Assembly (NCBI GenBank): GCA_012838865.1 | Contig: DUOK01000209.1 | Span: forward strand, 1-46,347 | Reading direction: 5' to 3' | DNA length: 46,347 bases | From: Bacteroidales bacterium | GTDB taxonomy: Bacteria > Bacteroidota > Bacteroidia > Bacteroidales > Marinilabiliaceae | Part shown: piece by piece, positions 33,316 to 39,470 of the stretch | Position numbering within the stretch: position 1 is the stretch's first letter | Layout of the letters: every line of letters begins with the position of its first letter | Notes under the pieces: generated by a model | Told to the model about the DNA's origin: nothing | What the model saw: only the letters and a program-made list of their open reading frames with translations | Databases searched by the model: none | Translations under genes and position numbers: made by a program

Positions 33316-34167
33316 CTATTTCTCTTCTCTGCGTCGTTCGTTTCGGGTAATGTCTACTTCTATCGGTTCGCGGGTCATACTGCGATAAATGAGGTAGATG
33401 GCGCCAATCATAAAGGGAATACTTAACCACTGCCCCATGTTCAGCATCATGCCTGCCTCAAAAGCTTCTTGATCTTCTTTTATAAATTCAATAAAAAAGC
33501 GGGTGGCAAAAATGCCAATCAAGAATACGCCAAAAATCAATCCCTGACGTCGTGCGGCATTCCGCTTCCAATACATATACATCAAAACGGCAAAAGTAAT
33601 CAGATAGCTGAGGGCCTCGTACAATTGAGAAGGGTGTCGGGGCAACTCCGGGTTGGCAATGCCATGGGCCTTAACAAAGGCAAAACCCCAGGGTAAGTCG
33701 GTGGGCATACCAACAATCTCAGAATTCATCAGGTTGCCCAAACGGATAAAAACGGCCGCCAAAGCTACGGGAATTACCAGCTTGTCCATGGTCCACAACA
33801 TCGAGCGGCGCGTCACATTTTTAGAATAGAGCCACATGGCAATTAAAATACCAAAAGCACCACCGTGACTGGCCAGTCCACCCTGCCAGATCTTCAGAAT
33901 TTCACCGGGATGCTGCGAGTAATACTCCCAGCCATAGAAAAACACATGCCCCAGACGTGCCCCTACAACTGTGGCTACCATTACATAAACAAACAGCTTA
34001 TCGACCCAGGCTTCCGGCGCATTTTCGCGTCGAAACATGCGTTCTACAATATAGTAGCCCAACAAAAAGGCAATGGCAAAAAAGAGTCCGTAATAACGCA
34101 CCGAAATCGGGCCGAAGGAAAACAGTTCGGGATCGGCGGTCCATGTAATGTAGGAAAAGAGTTGCAT
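33316..34167 (-). CDS. lgt: Prolipoprotein diacylglyceryl transferase
   Basis: 283 aa, about seven membrane segments. Attaches diacylglycerol to the lipobox cysteine of pre-lipoproteins at the inner membrane. Conserved elements: SVRYYGLFFAIAFLLGY, the HGGAFG loop, and the Lgt signature RLGNLMNSEIVG with the essential Arg and Asn, plus HPSQLYEAL with the essential region near the C-terminus. The TPR lipoprotein in this window is an expected substrate. Downstream of secA, separated by a hairpin. Confidence 0.95.
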   Translation of the reverse strand: MQLFSYITWTADPELFSFGPISVRYYGLFFAIAFLLGYYIVERMFRRENAPEAWVDKLFVYVMVATVVGARLGHVFFYGWEYYSQHPGEILKIWQGGLASHGGAFGILIAMWLYSKNVTRRSMLWTMDKLVIPVALAAVFIRLGNLMNSEIVGMPTDLPWGFAFVKAHGIANPELPRHPSQLYEALSYLITFAVLMYMYWKRNAARRQGLIFGVFLIGIFATRFFIEFIKEDQEAFEAGMMLNMGQWLSIPFMIGAIYLIYRSMTREPIEVDITRNERRREEK

Positions 34168-34266: not shown

Positions 34267-37200
34267 TTATTTACCATGGCATTGCTTGTACTTCTTACCA
34301 CTGCCACAGGGACAGGGTTCATTGCGCCCCACCTTTTTCTCGGTACGAATGGGCTGTACCGGCTGCGGTTTTTGGGGAGCCTGGGGCTCACCCGGCATGG
34401 GGGGGCGACCTGCAGGTGCGCCGGCACCCGGATCGTCTTTTTGCGTACGCAGCGCGCTCAAATCGGGTCGTCTGCGTTGCTCCGCTTCTCTTACCTGACT
34501 GGCATCCCTTATGGGGATGTGCGCCTTGGCCAGGGAAGATACTACCGATTTGTTGTTTTTGTCGATCATCCCTTTGAAAAGGTTGAAAGACTCAAACTTA
34601 TAAATCAACAAGGGGTCTTTCTGCTCATAGGAGGCATTTTGTACCGCCTGTTTCAGATCGTCGAGTTCACGAAGATGCTCTTTCCAGGCCTCGTCAATGG
34701 TAATGAGCATAATGGCCTTTTCAAAAGATTTGGCCAACTCCTTTCCTTCTGTTTCATAGGCCTTTTTAAGATTGGTGGTGATTTGGAAAACCCGATGTCC
34801 ATCGGATATAGGCACCACGATGTTCTGATAGATTTCGGCCTTGGTTTCAAAAACATTTTTCACTACCGGATAGGCCTGACGGGCCATATGCTCAATTTTC
34901 CTGAGGTAGCCCTTCCAAATTTGATCGTGCAGCTGATCGGTCAGTTCCTCTGCTTTACCTTTCATCAGGGCATCCTGATCGAAGGGGCACTCGGCAGAGA
35001 AAATCCGAATCAACTCCATTTTGAAGGTTTCAAAATCGTTGCTCTCCTGAGCGTCTTGTACCAGTCCCTCAATGGTATCGAACATCATATTGGAGATTTC
35101 GACCTGCATGCGCTCTCCGTACAAAGCTCTTCTGCGCTTGGTGTAAATCACCTCACGCTGCGAATTCATTACATCGTCGTACTCCAACAAACGCTTACGA
35201 ATACCGAAGTTGTTCTCTTCTACTTTTTTCTGAGCTCTTTCGATCGACTTGGTAATCATACTGTGCTGAATCATCTCTCCGTCTTCCACGCCCAAGCGAT
35301 CCATATACTTCACCAGTCGGTCCGACCCGAACAAACGCATCAAATCGTCTTCCAGAGAGACAAAGAATTGCGACGAACCGGGGTCGCCCTGGCGACCGGC
35401 ACGTCCGCGCAACTGGCGGTCAACCCGACGCGATTCGTGCCTTTCGGTACCCACAATGGCCAAACCTCCGGCCGCCTTGACTTCGGCCGACAGTTTGATG
35501 TCGGTTCCCCTACCGGCCATGTTGGTGGCAATGGTTACAATACCCTTCTTACCGGCCTCGGCCACAATGTCCGCTTCCCGCTGGTGCAGCTTGGCGTTCA
35601 GGACATTATGCTGAATGCCCCTTAATTTGAGCATGCGGCTGAGCAGCTCGGAGACTTCCACCGAAGTCGTACCCACCAGAACGGGTCGTCCGGCATTCAC
35701 CAGCTCCACAATCTCTTCGATTACCGCATTGTATTTTTCACGCTTGGTTTTATAAACCTTATCGTTCATATCCTTGCGCTGAATGGGACGGTTCGTGGGG
35801 ATGACCACCACATCCAGTTTGTAGATGTTCCAGAGCTCACCGGCTTCGGTCTCCGCAGTACCGGTCATACCGGCCAGTTTGTTGTACATGCGGAAGTAGT
35901 TCTGCAAGGTAATGGTGGCATAGGTCTGCGTAGCTGCTTCTACCTTCACCCTTTCCTTGGCCTCAATGGCCTGGTGCAGACCGTCGGAATAACGCCGGCC
36001 TTCCATGATACGCCCCGTTTGCTCATCTACAATTTTCACCTTGTTGTCCATCACCACATATTCCACATCCTTTTCGAACATGGCGTAGGCCTTCAGCAAC
36101 TGGTTGATGGTATGTACGCGCTCCGACTTAACGGCGTAGCTTTGCATCAGCTCGTCTTTCTTCTGGAGCTTTTCCTCCTCCGAAAGACCTGCTTTTTCGA
36201 GGACCGCGATTTCCGATCCGATATCCGGTAAAACAAAAAACTGAGGATCTTCTGAGTCGCCGGTGATCAAATCAATACCCTTGTCGGTGAGTTCCACCGA
36301 ATTGGTTTTTTCGTCAATTACGAAAAACAGGGGATCGGTGACCACATGCATGTTCTTATTGTTTTCCTGCATGTAGAAATTCTCGGTTTTAAGCATACTG
36401 GCCTTGATGCCCGGCTCGCTTAAAAATTTAATCAAAGGCTTGTTTTTGGGCATGCCCTTAAAAGCACGCAGCAACAGCAAGGCACCTTCCTCCTGCTCCT
36501 TGTTGTCCGAAGAAGCCATTTTTTGTTTGGCATCGGCCAACAAACGTGAAGTCATGGCACGCTGGCTTTCAACCAGGCGCTCCACTTTGGGACGAAGTTC
36601 GGTAAAGAGCTGATCGTCGCCGCGCGGTATGGGACCCGAAATGATCAAAGGTGTACGTGCGTCATCAATCAATACCGAATCCACCTCATCCACGATACCA
36701 AAGTTGTGCTTGCGCTGCACCAAATCATCGGGCGAAACCGCCATGTTGTCGCGCAAATAGTCGAAACCAAATTCATTGTTGGTACCATAGGTGATGTCGG
36801 CCTGGTAGGCTTTACGACGCTCTGCCGAATTGGGCTGATGCTTATCGATGCAATCTACACTCAAACCGTGGAACATGAAGATGGGCCCCATCCACTCTGA
36901 GTCCCGTTTGGCCAGGTAGTCGTTTACGGTAACCACGTGCACACCCCGTCCGGCCAAAGCATTCAGGAATACCGGCAGCGTAGCCACCAATGTTTTACCT
37001 TCACCCGTTGCCATCTCGGCGATTTTTCCCTGGTGCAGGACAACCCCGCCAATCAGCTGCACATCGTAGTGCACCATGTCCCAGGTTATCTCAGTGCCAC
37101 CGGCCAGCCAGCTGTTGGCAAAGCGCGCTTTGTCGCCGTCAATTTCTACAAAATCGGCACGCGCAGCCAGGTCGCGGTCAAACTCGCTGGCGGTTACCTC

Positions 37201-37590
37201 CACCGAACTGTTTTCCTTGAAGCGACGCGCAGTTTCTTTAACAATGGAGAAGGCTTCGGGGAGTATTTCATCCAGGGTTTTCTCAATAAGGTCGGTAATT
37301 TCCTTTTCCAGGCGATCAATTTCTTCATACATCTTCTCCCGTTCATCTACTTCGGGATTTTCATGCTCAATGCTCTGTTTCAAAGCATCAATACGTGCCT
37401 GTTGCTCGGCATAGCCGGCAGCAATTCGCTGTTTAAGCTCCTGGGTGTGCTGACGCAAGCCATCGTTCGAAAGTTTTGAAATTTCAGGATAGGCAGCCTT
37501 AATTCTTTCCAGATAAGGTTGCACTTCCTTCATGTCACGTTTGGACTTATCGCCCAAAAACAGGGCCAGTATGCTATTTACTACACTCAT
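34267..37590 (-). CDS. secA: Preprotein translocase ATPase SecA
   Basis: 1107 aa from the ATG at 37590 ([19 protein letters not shown]); a TTG three codons earlier is not needed. Motor that drives preproteins through SecYEG. The DEAD-motor NBD1 has [20 protein letters not shown] and LIISGP. NBD2 has [10 protein letters not shown] and a [13 protein letters not shown] segment. The C-terminal zinc motif [14 protein letters not shown] binds SecB or membranes. Length is larger than E. coli SecA (901 aa), as in other Bacteroidota. Directly upstream is a small secreted ORF ending in RAGP, a candidate arrest peptide controlling secA. Confidence 0.97.
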
Positions 37591-37607
37591 ATTAATCAAG
37601 GTGTTGA

Positions 37608-37628
37608 AAACCGTTGTTTTAACGGTTT
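37608..37628 (-). promoter_or_regulatory. Hairpin in the spacer just before secA
   Basis: On the mRNA, AAACCGTT - AAAAC - AACGGTTT forms a perfect 8-bp stem ending 17 nt before the secA ATG, inside the span an initiating ribosome covers. An additional weak outer pairing TTAAT/ATTAA could extend it to within 4 nt of the start codon. It may control secA translation, as the secM-secA hairpin does in E. coli; a weak terminator is the alternative. Confidence 0.5.
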
Positions 37629-37680
37629 ATTAAAATAAAAAGTATTACAGGGAAATGGCTTCCTCGATAGGGGAAAGACC

Positions 37681-38169
37681 TTAAGCAATAAAGGCAGGAC
37701 CAGCACGGGAGGGACGCACACTCCAGAGTACTGAGCTGGCGTGGCCGGACTCAGGGGCTGCGCACAACAGTGCAGTTTGGCTTGTCCAAAAATCAGATTC
37801 ACCGCCGCCAAGACCAGCATCACAGAGAAGTTGATCAGAAAAATCCTCGTGGGAAGTAAAGGCTGACCCTACAATGAGTGGTGCAGAAGGACAGCAATAC
37901 AGTGCTTCAAGTACATCTTTAAGAGAAGTATCTACAGTGCCAGCTGCCAGGGATCTGTGCTCAAAAACAAAAGAAGTATCCTGAGCAGCCAGTACTCTAA
38001 AGGCCTCCTGGATGTCCTGCACTTTGAGCAAGCAAATTTGCTGACCTCGAAGTCGGGCCGACTTAAATACGCTTGCCTCCTCTTCAGCGCGACCATGTTG
38101 CATGGTAAGCACCATACTGAGTGAAAAACTCAATAGAGTCCAATAAGCCATGTCGGATCGCTGTTTCAT
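37681..38169 (-). CDS. SecM-like secreted leader peptide (candidate translation-arrest peptide)
   Basis: 162 aa, ATG at 38169. An N-terminal signal peptide (MKQRSDMAYWTLLSFSLSM..., cleavage near GRA-EEEA) is followed by a ~130-residue Ala/Ser/Leu-rich body with a weak resemblance to a secretin/STN domain (IQEAFRVLAAQDTSFVFEHRS). The C-terminus is W149-S-V-R-P-S-R155-A-G-P158, then A-F-I-A and stop. E. coli SecM is 170 aa, has a signal peptide, its arrest motif ends in I-R163-A-G-P166 followed by four residues, and sits just upstream of secA. Here the gene is 90 nt upstream of secA on the same strand. Seen: position, signal peptide, RAGP plus four residues. Inferred: arrest. The spacing from the upstream Trp to Arg is 6 here versus 8 in E. 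coli. Confidence 0.75.
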   Translation of the reverse strand: MKQRSDMAYWTLLSFSLSMVLTMQHGRAEEEASVFKSARLRGQQICLLKVQDIQEAFRVLAAQDTSFVFEHRSLAAGTVDTSLKDVLEALYCCPSAPLIVGSAFTSHEDFSDQLLCDAGLGGGESDFWTSQTALLCAAPESGHASSVLWSVRPSRAGPAFIA

Positions 38170-38267
38170 TTGATGTTGATTTGAAAACGTAAAGATGCCA
38201 AAAGATTTTCAAAAACCCGCGCCTCTATGTGCTAAAAAAATTGCAACTTTAGGATTCAAAAAATCAG

Positions 38268-38408: not shown

Positions 38409-39470
38409 CTATCCACGAAAAAAACGTTGTACCTGCATCGATTTGGGAATGCAAATTTCTCCTTTGTTCCAGCTGCGCACCAGCAAATCGGCACAGTAGG
38501 GTGCCCAAAAAACGCCCCTGGAGCCCATGCCATTGAGCACATAAACCTCTTCTTGTCCAGGCAGCGCCCCCACTACCGGCATGCGGTCACGCACCGCAGG
38601 CCGAACACCCGCACGGTGTTCCACCACCTCAAAACCGACCGTCAGCATAGTGCGCAGTCGCTCTTCCAGCCATTGGCGTCCTGTCACGCTGGGGACAGCA
38701 TCCAGCGTTTCCCGCTTGTAAGTCGCACCAGCCCTAAAGCGGTTTTCGCCCAAAGGCAGTACAAAAAGCTCATCCCGCCAAATAAAATCCTCCGCCAAGC
38801 CAGGGGCAACAAATTCGAGCAATTCGCCCTTGTTCGGCGTCCAAGGCACCCCCTGGAGCCAGGGATTGCTGCGGACTGCTGCCCCCTCACAAAAAACGAT
38901 CTTCCGAGCCTTTAGATGGCCGCCCTTCCACAGCCAGTTGTTGTTTTTTCGGCTTAAATCCTGCGGCTCCACTTTTGCATCAATCAGCCAATTTTTGCTG
39001 CGCAGGCGTGCTCCCGATACCTCCAACCAAGGTGCAACATCCAGGTAGCCCGAACCGCTGTAGCGGCCCCAACCGGCAGACGAACGCAAGCCAGGAAGCT
39101 TTCCGTCCGCTTTAAGCTCGCCCAAAAACACCCCAAAGTCCTTACTTCGCCCCCGCTCCCACTCTAACAACTCTTGTTCATTCAGCAACTTAACGCTGTC
39201 CTTCCAATGTAAAAATTGAAGTCTGTATAAAGCCTCTAAGCGGCCGTATGCTTCATTCAACAATGGCCAGACCTGGGCCACTCCCCGGGCAGCTCTAAGT
39301 TTGCGAAACATCAAGGGGTTGATTAAACCTCCCGCTACTTCCGAAGCACCAGGCTGCGTCGAATCACTGACCACCCTGAAATCCATCCCTGCTTCCTCCA
39401 GACGATGCGCCAGCAACGATCCAGCTAATCCATAGCCCACAATCAAAACTTCCGTTTTCTCCTTTGTCAT
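38409..39470 (-). CDS. FAD-dependent oxidoreductase (DAO family)
   Basis: 353 aa. N-terminal dinucleotide-binding loop GYGLAGS (about 12-18) followed by an acidic-free beta strand, and the C-terminal DAO-family GMGSRGVFWAPYCADLL. The family includes glycine/D-amino acid oxidases and the C-terminal domain of MnmC, which removes carboxymethyl groups in tRNA; here there is no MnmC methyltransferase half. Substrate is unknown. Divergent from trhO-dus, both tRNA-modification genes, so a tRNA-modification role is possible but unproven. Confidence 0.85.
   Translation of the reverse strand: MTKEKTEVLIVGYGLAGSLLAHRLEEAGMDFRVVSDSTQPGASEVAGGLINPLMFRKLRAARGVAQVWPLLNEAYGRLEALYRLQFLHWKDSVKLLNEQELLEWERGRSKDFGVFLGELKADGKLPGLRSSAGWGRYSGSGYLDVAPWLEVSGARLRSKNWLIDAKVEPQDLSRKNNNWLWKGGHLKARKIVFCEGAAVRSNPWLQGVPWTPNKGELLEFVAPGLAEDFIWRDELFVLPLGENRFRAGATYKRETLDAVPSVTGRQWLEERLRTMLTVGFEVVEHRAGVRPAVRDRMPVVGALPGQEEVYVLNGMGSRGVFWAPYCADLLVRSWNKGEICIPKSMQVQRFFRG

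Follow-up and report, generated by a model that had tools for sequence, protein, structure and literature searches.

The Escherichia coli SecM protein, which is 170 amino acids long, reports on protein export by stalling its own ribosome; its arrest sequence is FxxxxWIxxxxGIRAGP, and Pfam includes a SecM family. Upstream open reading frames of secA (uORFs) with RAPP-like ends have been described across many phyla, and they include uA_RQH_Bacteroidales_1 and uA_RQH_Bacteroidales_2 (PMC10987492); the arrest-peptide idea for secA uORFs is already published there for Bacteroidales. According to the same source, both of these arrested B. subtilis ribosomes in a purified translation system and were less effective on those of E. 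coli; uA_RQH_Bacteroidales_2 carries RAPG, and its E. coli signal did not lie at the motif. In the mapped cases the P site held the third residue of the motif, a signal-to-motif spacer of more than 30 residues was demanded for the class, and the screen covered proteins of fewer than 300 amino acids without annotated function (PMC10987492). Its Discussion leaves open whether RAPP-like arrest peptides had one origin or emerged repeatedly. Of the sequences of RAPP/RAGP type tested there (14 E. coli and 9 B. subtilis), most failed to stall efficiently, so the motif alone is not enough (PMC10987492). RAGP is underrepresented in diverse bacterial proteomes, and it supports arrest in some other arrest-peptide contexts (PMC12992588).

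The secA locus of the window and its relatives

We analyzed a contig of 46,347 nucleotides from a Marinilabiliaceae genome (DUOK01000209.1; here called the window). The genome (G000) is that of a Geofilum relative, in the same genus as G004 and G002, and its SecA is 98% identical to that of G004. The features of the locus are collected in Table 1. A sequence-only reading of this DNA had described a 162 amino acid ORF with a signal peptide and the end SRAGPAFIA-stop, 90 nt before secA, and the length, the end and the place are confirmed; the frame reads through without an internal stop to the C-terminus LWSVRPSRAGPAFIA, with RAGP four residues from the stop codon. The gap to secA is counted to its ATG, although the mechanical ORF list begins secA at an upstream TTG (37599). 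The signal peptide of that reading stands as a hydrophobic N-terminal core (12-residue mean hydropathy 1.91), and is called signal-like here on the basis of hydropathy only. The window uORF matches no Pfam family at E ≤ 1, and an STN-like domain guessed by eye in its body is unsupported by that search. Downstream of secA on the same strand, lgt is found 10–343 nt away in all 29 of the family loci L001–L029. SecA is split into several pieces in the G017:C301 and G002:C208 assemblies, with internal stops in G017.

Table 1. Features of the secA locus of the window, in the order of transcription
Feature	Position	Strand	Basis or remark
FAD-dependent oxidoreductase	38409-39470	minus	upstream of the uORF
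Conserved block AAAATCTTTTGGCATCTTTA, 21-40 nt before uORF start	38190..38209	minus	block search in relatives
uORF, 162 aa, proposed secretion-monitor arrest peptide	37681..38169	minus	translation; R/KAGP ORF here in 56/65 family genomes
Hydrophobic core, signal-peptide-like N-terminus (about residues 8-23 of uORF)	38101..38148	minus	hydropathy
RAGP codons, R155-P158	37696..37707	minus	translation and conservation
uORF tail AFIA and stop codon	37681..37695	minus	translation
uORF-secA gap, 90 nt	37591..37680	minus	between uORF stop and secA ATG
secA, proposed regulated gene	34267..37590, ATG at 37590	minus	PF07517, E 1.4e-115
lgt (prolipoprotein diacylglyceryl transferase), next gene on same strand	33316..34167	minus	PF01790, E 4.8e-74

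The DNA before secA was examined in a first sample of 60 relatives plus the window genome, and then in a family sample of 71 genomes. The 65 of these that have at least 450 nt upstream of secA were counted; the six left out are G018, G033, G075 and G088 (no SecA match), G083 (SecA at a contig edge) and G009 (257 nt upstream). An ORF with R/KAGP lies before secA in 56 of the 65, with RAGP in 55 and KAGP in one (G020). Fifty of the 56 are short forms, in which the motif lies 2–10 residues before the stop, and six are long forms, in which it lies 43–47 residues before the end. The motif is absent in nine genomes, namely G011, G023 and seven of genus g6 (G027, G036, G084, G086, G091, G092 and G093). 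No such uORF lies before secA in G011 (locus L196), and G036 (L048) has a uORF with a similar signal segment and the end HSPPVA in place of RAGP. An R/KAGP ORF is missing from this place in all 24 genomes of other families of the order (three of them with less than 500 nt of upstream sequence).

When one genome is taken from each of 19 lineages, the R is present in 18 (K in the other), and the A, G and P are present in all 19; nothing else between –14 and +6 approaches such conservation. The residue before the R is T or I in 12.6 of the 19 lineages (lineage-averaged; p 1.8e-7, uncorrected for 270 tests, for a residue set that was picked after the position-by-position conservation table was known); the window uORF has S there. 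The expectation that the last 20 residues would be conserved as a block thus fails, since only RAGP is kept together with the T/I preference before it, and what is conserved in these monitors is RAGP and the signal-like segment rather than a 20-residue end. RAGP codons vary freely among relatives and the amino acids are constant. Ten short-form pairs (some of them saturated, and G061 entering two of them) were pooled, and pN/pS came to 0.05 at RAGP itself, 0.24 for the residues surrounding the motif and 0.34 for the body; dN around RAGP exceeds that of the body in three of the ten. Between genera the bodies are so divergent that no common alignment is visible by eye. A faint common HI-x-x-x-SAD behind the signal segment can be seen by eye in the bodies of G001, G002, G012 and G010 (Geofilum and neighbours). 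The hydrophobic core is separated from the R by 131 residues in the window and by 102–158 in the short forms (one mis-picked row excluded).

Among the 202,254 residues of the six-frame open frames (250 amino acids or longer) of 80 named loci, RAGP is found three times, always in the ORF directly upstream of secA; this, its low pN/pS relative to that of the body and the retention of R/KAGP in 56 of 65 genomes and across 19 lineages make it highly improbable that RAGP is a coincidence in an otherwise unremarkable small exported protein. The sequence-only reading had named non-conservation of the RAGP end in relatives as evidence against its proposal, and the end is in fact retained against a variable body. 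Its central proposal, an export-sensing arrest peptide, gains support from that conservation, from the divergent bodies and from the in vitro stalling reported for Bacteroidales members of the same class (PMC10987492). It is weakened by the inefficient stalling of most RAPP/RAGP-type sequences in that study together with the lack of a longer conserved context here, by the pairs whose residues around RAGP vary more than the body, and by the nine genomes without the motif and the one with KAGP. By the features of its sequence, the window ORF very probably encodes an export-sensing secretion monitor that acts on secA.

In its placement, signal-like segment, long spacer and RAGP, the uORF agrees with a published model in which export relieves the stall of a monitor. 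Under that model, the Sec machinery would engage the signal-like N-terminus of the uORF product during its translation, and if export were slow the ribosome would stall on reaching RAGP, which lies 131 residues beyond the hydrophobic core. By analogy with the mapped sites of PMC10987492, the stalled state would have the G157 codon in the P site and that of P158 in the A site, and on the same analogy we infer that the window peptide itself stalls. The stall would presumably lead to more SecA from the downstream gene, and active export would end it by pulling on the nascent chain.

A lipobox-like Cys (TASC, MSSC or VGSC) ends the signal segment in 31 of the 56 monitor rows under a loose pattern; the count is rough because the automatic choice of N-terminus is wrong for some rows, G022, G025, G072 and G015 among them. 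Since such a Cys is found in many signal segments and lgt follows secA, the monitor may be a prolipoprotein in the lipobox-bearing lineages; the window uORF has no lipobox-like Cys.

Upstream block and RNA structure

The conserved block that precedes the window uORF overlaps a promoter-like TTG-N18-TACGTTTT (38184-38212, minus strand). Block-type sequences are found before 29 of the 56 uORFs (0.33 expected by shuffling) and in none of the 56 uORF-secA gaps, by a pattern that was chosen after the relatives' sequences were known; only two of the six long forms (G029 and G015) are preceded by one. The block core occurs once in the genome of the window and has 0 to 5 matches in other family genomes, not all of them near secA. 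A generic promoter scan (TTG-N16-21-TAnnTTT) gave a weak signal, far below that of the block, with matches upstream of the uORF in 8 of 55 rows (2.9 expected) and in the gap in 2 of 55 (1.9 expected). We consider the block a candidate promoter or regulator site specific to this gene, and, because it lies before the uORF and not between uORF and secA, its distribution fits a single transcript that would start before the uORF. The block AAAATCTTTTNNCATCTTTA of the window (38190-38209) also precedes secA in G011, where no monitor was found.

In the window gap, base pairing is predicted between UUAAGGU (37678-37684), which spans the uORF stop, and ACCUUGA (37596-37602), which closely precedes the secA ATG. 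This pairing would adjoin a ribosome halted at RAGP, and the stall would possibly free ACCUUGA before the secA start. RNA was folded with and without a ribosome at RAGP for 56 rows, with 12 shuffles per row (G074 is uninformative, having a run of N in its gap). The secA start of the window goes from 0.35 to 0.47 unpaired, a gain of 0.12 that was equalled in 2 of 12 shuffles, and G004 gains 0.06 (0 of 12 shuffles as high). E. coli SecM has a stem-loop over the secA start, whereas in the RAGP uORFs a hairpin switch of that type was not detected family-wide (on average the secA start gains 0.010 in openness and its shuffled counterparts gain 0.003; p 0.065), and several rows lose openness there (for example G080, –0.27, and G006, –0.18). 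Overall, the real secA starts have a slightly higher openness (0.535) than the shuffled ones (0.511; p 0.004, 56 rows), which argues against a covering hairpin. The proline codon of RAGP is separated from the secA ATG by 63 to 429 nt in the short forms and by 174 to 361 nt in the long forms, and this spread argues against a single fixed RNA switch.

FGE-like proteins upstream of secA

The six long forms, from three genera (G014, G073, G074 and G029 of g11, G015 of g12 and G021 of g18), resemble formylglycine-generating enzymes (FGE). They are 318–327 amino acids long except that of G029, which has 210. That of G074 covers positions 2–255 of the 255 in the PF03781 profile (E 1.3e-63) and also matches solved formylglycine-generating enzymes (best E 9.1e-54), and the other long forms align with it. 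The loop that carries RAGP is followed by the RGGS motif; in many other FGE proteins NPxGP stands in this loop. In an AlphaFold model of the G074 form (18-row alignment, mean pLDDT 71), RAGP (277–280) lies in a loop between strands 257–265 and 284–290 (block mean pLDDT 65). The cysteine pair behind the RGGS of FGE is catalytic; the FGE-like forms do not have this pair of GGSxxC....C (they read GGSFMYDE.., against GGSFLCNDSYC in A1). Their nearest FGE relatives (L247–L249), which are 54–59% identical and come from three other families of the order, also have no cysteine pair. We found no paper in the open-licence literature that joins FGE with an arrest peptide. The new observation is a set of secA-adjacent FGE-like forms with RAGP in a loop, in which either a lipoprotein with an enzyme fold would have become a monitor or a monitor would have captured a fold.

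The FGE parts of the secA-adjacent forms make up one clade (100/99; five rows, without G029) beside Cys-less FGE proteins of other families. SecA, on the other hand, does not unite the genomes that bear them in a single clade (quick tree of 39 rows, AU p 2.5e-48). Together these indicate either several losses of the FGE part after one origin or a gene that was passed on.

Which form came first can be argued both ways. It is quite possible that the short peptide is ancestral, and that its signal segment was fused to an FGE lipoprotein domain in one subclade, with the motif re-made in the loop and the domain later lost or passed on. All six FGE-like N-termini match a profile of the short-form N-terminus (E 4.1e-13 to 0.0019), and among 29 other FGE rows the lowest E is 0.051 (6 of the 29 are cut, with the true N-terminus absent); the profile was made from 50 short forms, some of them mis-picked rows, and its E-values apply to a small set. 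The G015 FGE-like form agrees with the G013 short form at 22 of 23 residues over the signal segment. L247–L249 likewise speak for an ancestral short peptide, as they have different N-termini and no SecA match within the surrounding 9.7–13.5 kb. This course requires, however, that the motif was lost at the old end and that the same four residues were re-made in the loop.

The opposite course, in which an FGE-like lipoprotein with a RAGP loop is the older form and the short peptides arose by truncation just behind RAGP, is a more tentative possibility. It is favoured by the presence of an FGE-like form before secA in six genomes with RAGP 43–47 residues from the end, and by the distribution of one FGE clade over scattered SecA lineages, as repeated loss of FGE would give. 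The G029 gene resembles an intermediate, in that about 115 residues have been lost in frame (210 amino acids instead of 325) and the last stretch is altered, with RAGP kept at a spacer of 134 residues; that assembly is in about 380 pieces. L249 has REDP at the RAGP columns, so point changes would suffice to make the motif. Y/F-x-G with N precedes RAGP in 8 of the 9 short forms of g3, as in the FGE loop, and a similar pattern is present in G013 (single-row shuffle p 0.0001 to 0.023; the rows are related, and all 50 short forms were inspected). But in a search with a profile of five secA-adjacent and three near FGE proteins the 50 short bodies scored no better than shuffles and show no remaining FGE similarity, the short form is commoner and is also found outside the subclade that holds the FGE-like forms, and the long form may have moved between lineages. 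That subclade is neither supported nor rejected (AU p 0.247, 39 rows), and G021 is a long branch in both the SecA and the FGE tree. We lean slightly towards capture of the FGE fold by an existing monitor over an origin in the FGE-like form.

It is also conceivable, although unlikely, that the RAGP of the FGE-like forms belongs to the fold and is unrelated to stalling. GP is common in the same loop of other FGE proteins (NPxGP), and pN/pS in three g11 pairs is 0.12–0.13 before RAGP and 0.05–0.09 after it; this purifying selection on both sides suggests that the whole protein is made and used in g11, and thus that the full length matters. Pairs that include G029, G015 or G021 give larger values, reaching 0.70 after RAGP where G021 is compared. 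However, RAGP is found in all six secA-adjacent FGE-like proteins and in none of 23 other FGE rows of the family genomes (23 of 24 loci, among the matches listed) nor in any of 19 FGE rows from the wider order (from 18 of 30 loci), L247–L249 have no GP in the loop, and RAGP has been retained in G021, at 39% identity, and in the shortened G029.

The boldest form of the monitor reading is that in some Marinilabiliaceae the FGE-like lipoprotein serves as the secretion monitor, its fold bearing the stalling RAGP in a loop 43–47 residues before the end, and that the short peptides of sister lineages are cut-down versions of it; this could be so, and we put it forward with some reserve. If true, the cell would stall partway through making a conserved domain protein, use the pause to judge export, and afterwards complete the synthesis, and there would be a direct view of an arrest peptide arising from, or turning into, a folded protein.

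Comparison with known systems

The FGE-like forms have the FGE-sulfatase domain in common with the formylglycine-generating enzymes, whose cysteine pair has no counterpart in them. They differ from their Cys-less FGE lipoprotein relatives in lying directly upstream of secA and in having the N-terminus of the monitors and RAGP. Because they tie a RAGP uORF to a recognisable fold, they bear on the question of one origin or many that is left open in PMC10987492. The five full-length ones (318–327 amino acids) would escape the screen described there because of its limits of fewer than 300 amino acids and no annotated function; screens restricted to short unannotated ORFs can miss candidates within annotated domain proteins.

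Fifteen Marinifilaceae loci (among L076–L103) have a secA uORF ending in IRAPG (9) or IRAPV/VRAPV (6). These resemble the RAGP uORFs in their place before secA, their signal-like segment and their RAP-type end, but they have RAPG or RAPV instead of RAGP and a signal segment of the LTGC/LTAC type, and their bodies, which resemble one another, are unlike those of the RAGP uORFs. Judged by their ends, the Marinifilaceae RAPG uORFs are perhaps of the published uA_RQH_Bacteroidales_2 type.

By sequence the window uORF is not a SecM homologue: the Pfam search above gave no family, and the uORF lacks FxxxxWIxxxxGI. Its end, SSVLWSVRPSRAGP, has none of the F, W, I and GI that precede RAGP in SecM, and RAGP is all that the 19 lineages have in common. 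The two are nevertheless alike in lying upstream of secA, in their exported or signal-like N-terminus, in length (170 and 162 amino acids) and in having RAGP four residues before the stop. The 56 genomes of 19 lineages give a bounded set of SecM-like monitors in Bacteroidota in which nearly everything but RAGP is variable; this set can be used to ask which context RAGP needs for stalling.

The closest likeness is with the RQH family. Both the family members and the window uORF are small secA uORFs without annotated function (162 amino acids, 90 nt before secA, in the window) that have an N-terminal signal or transmembrane segment (by hydropathy only in the window) and a long variable spacer, which at 131 residues in the window is well over the 30 demanded. 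A RAPP-like C-terminal motif is conserved in the family, as R/KAGP is at the C-terminus of 50 of the 56 Marinilabiliaceae uORFs. The Marinilabiliaceae RAGP set may or may not correspond to uA_RQH_Bacteroidales_1, for which the main text of PMC10987492 names no species. By its size, place, signal, motif and spacer, all of them criteria read from sequence, the window peptide fits the published RQH class.
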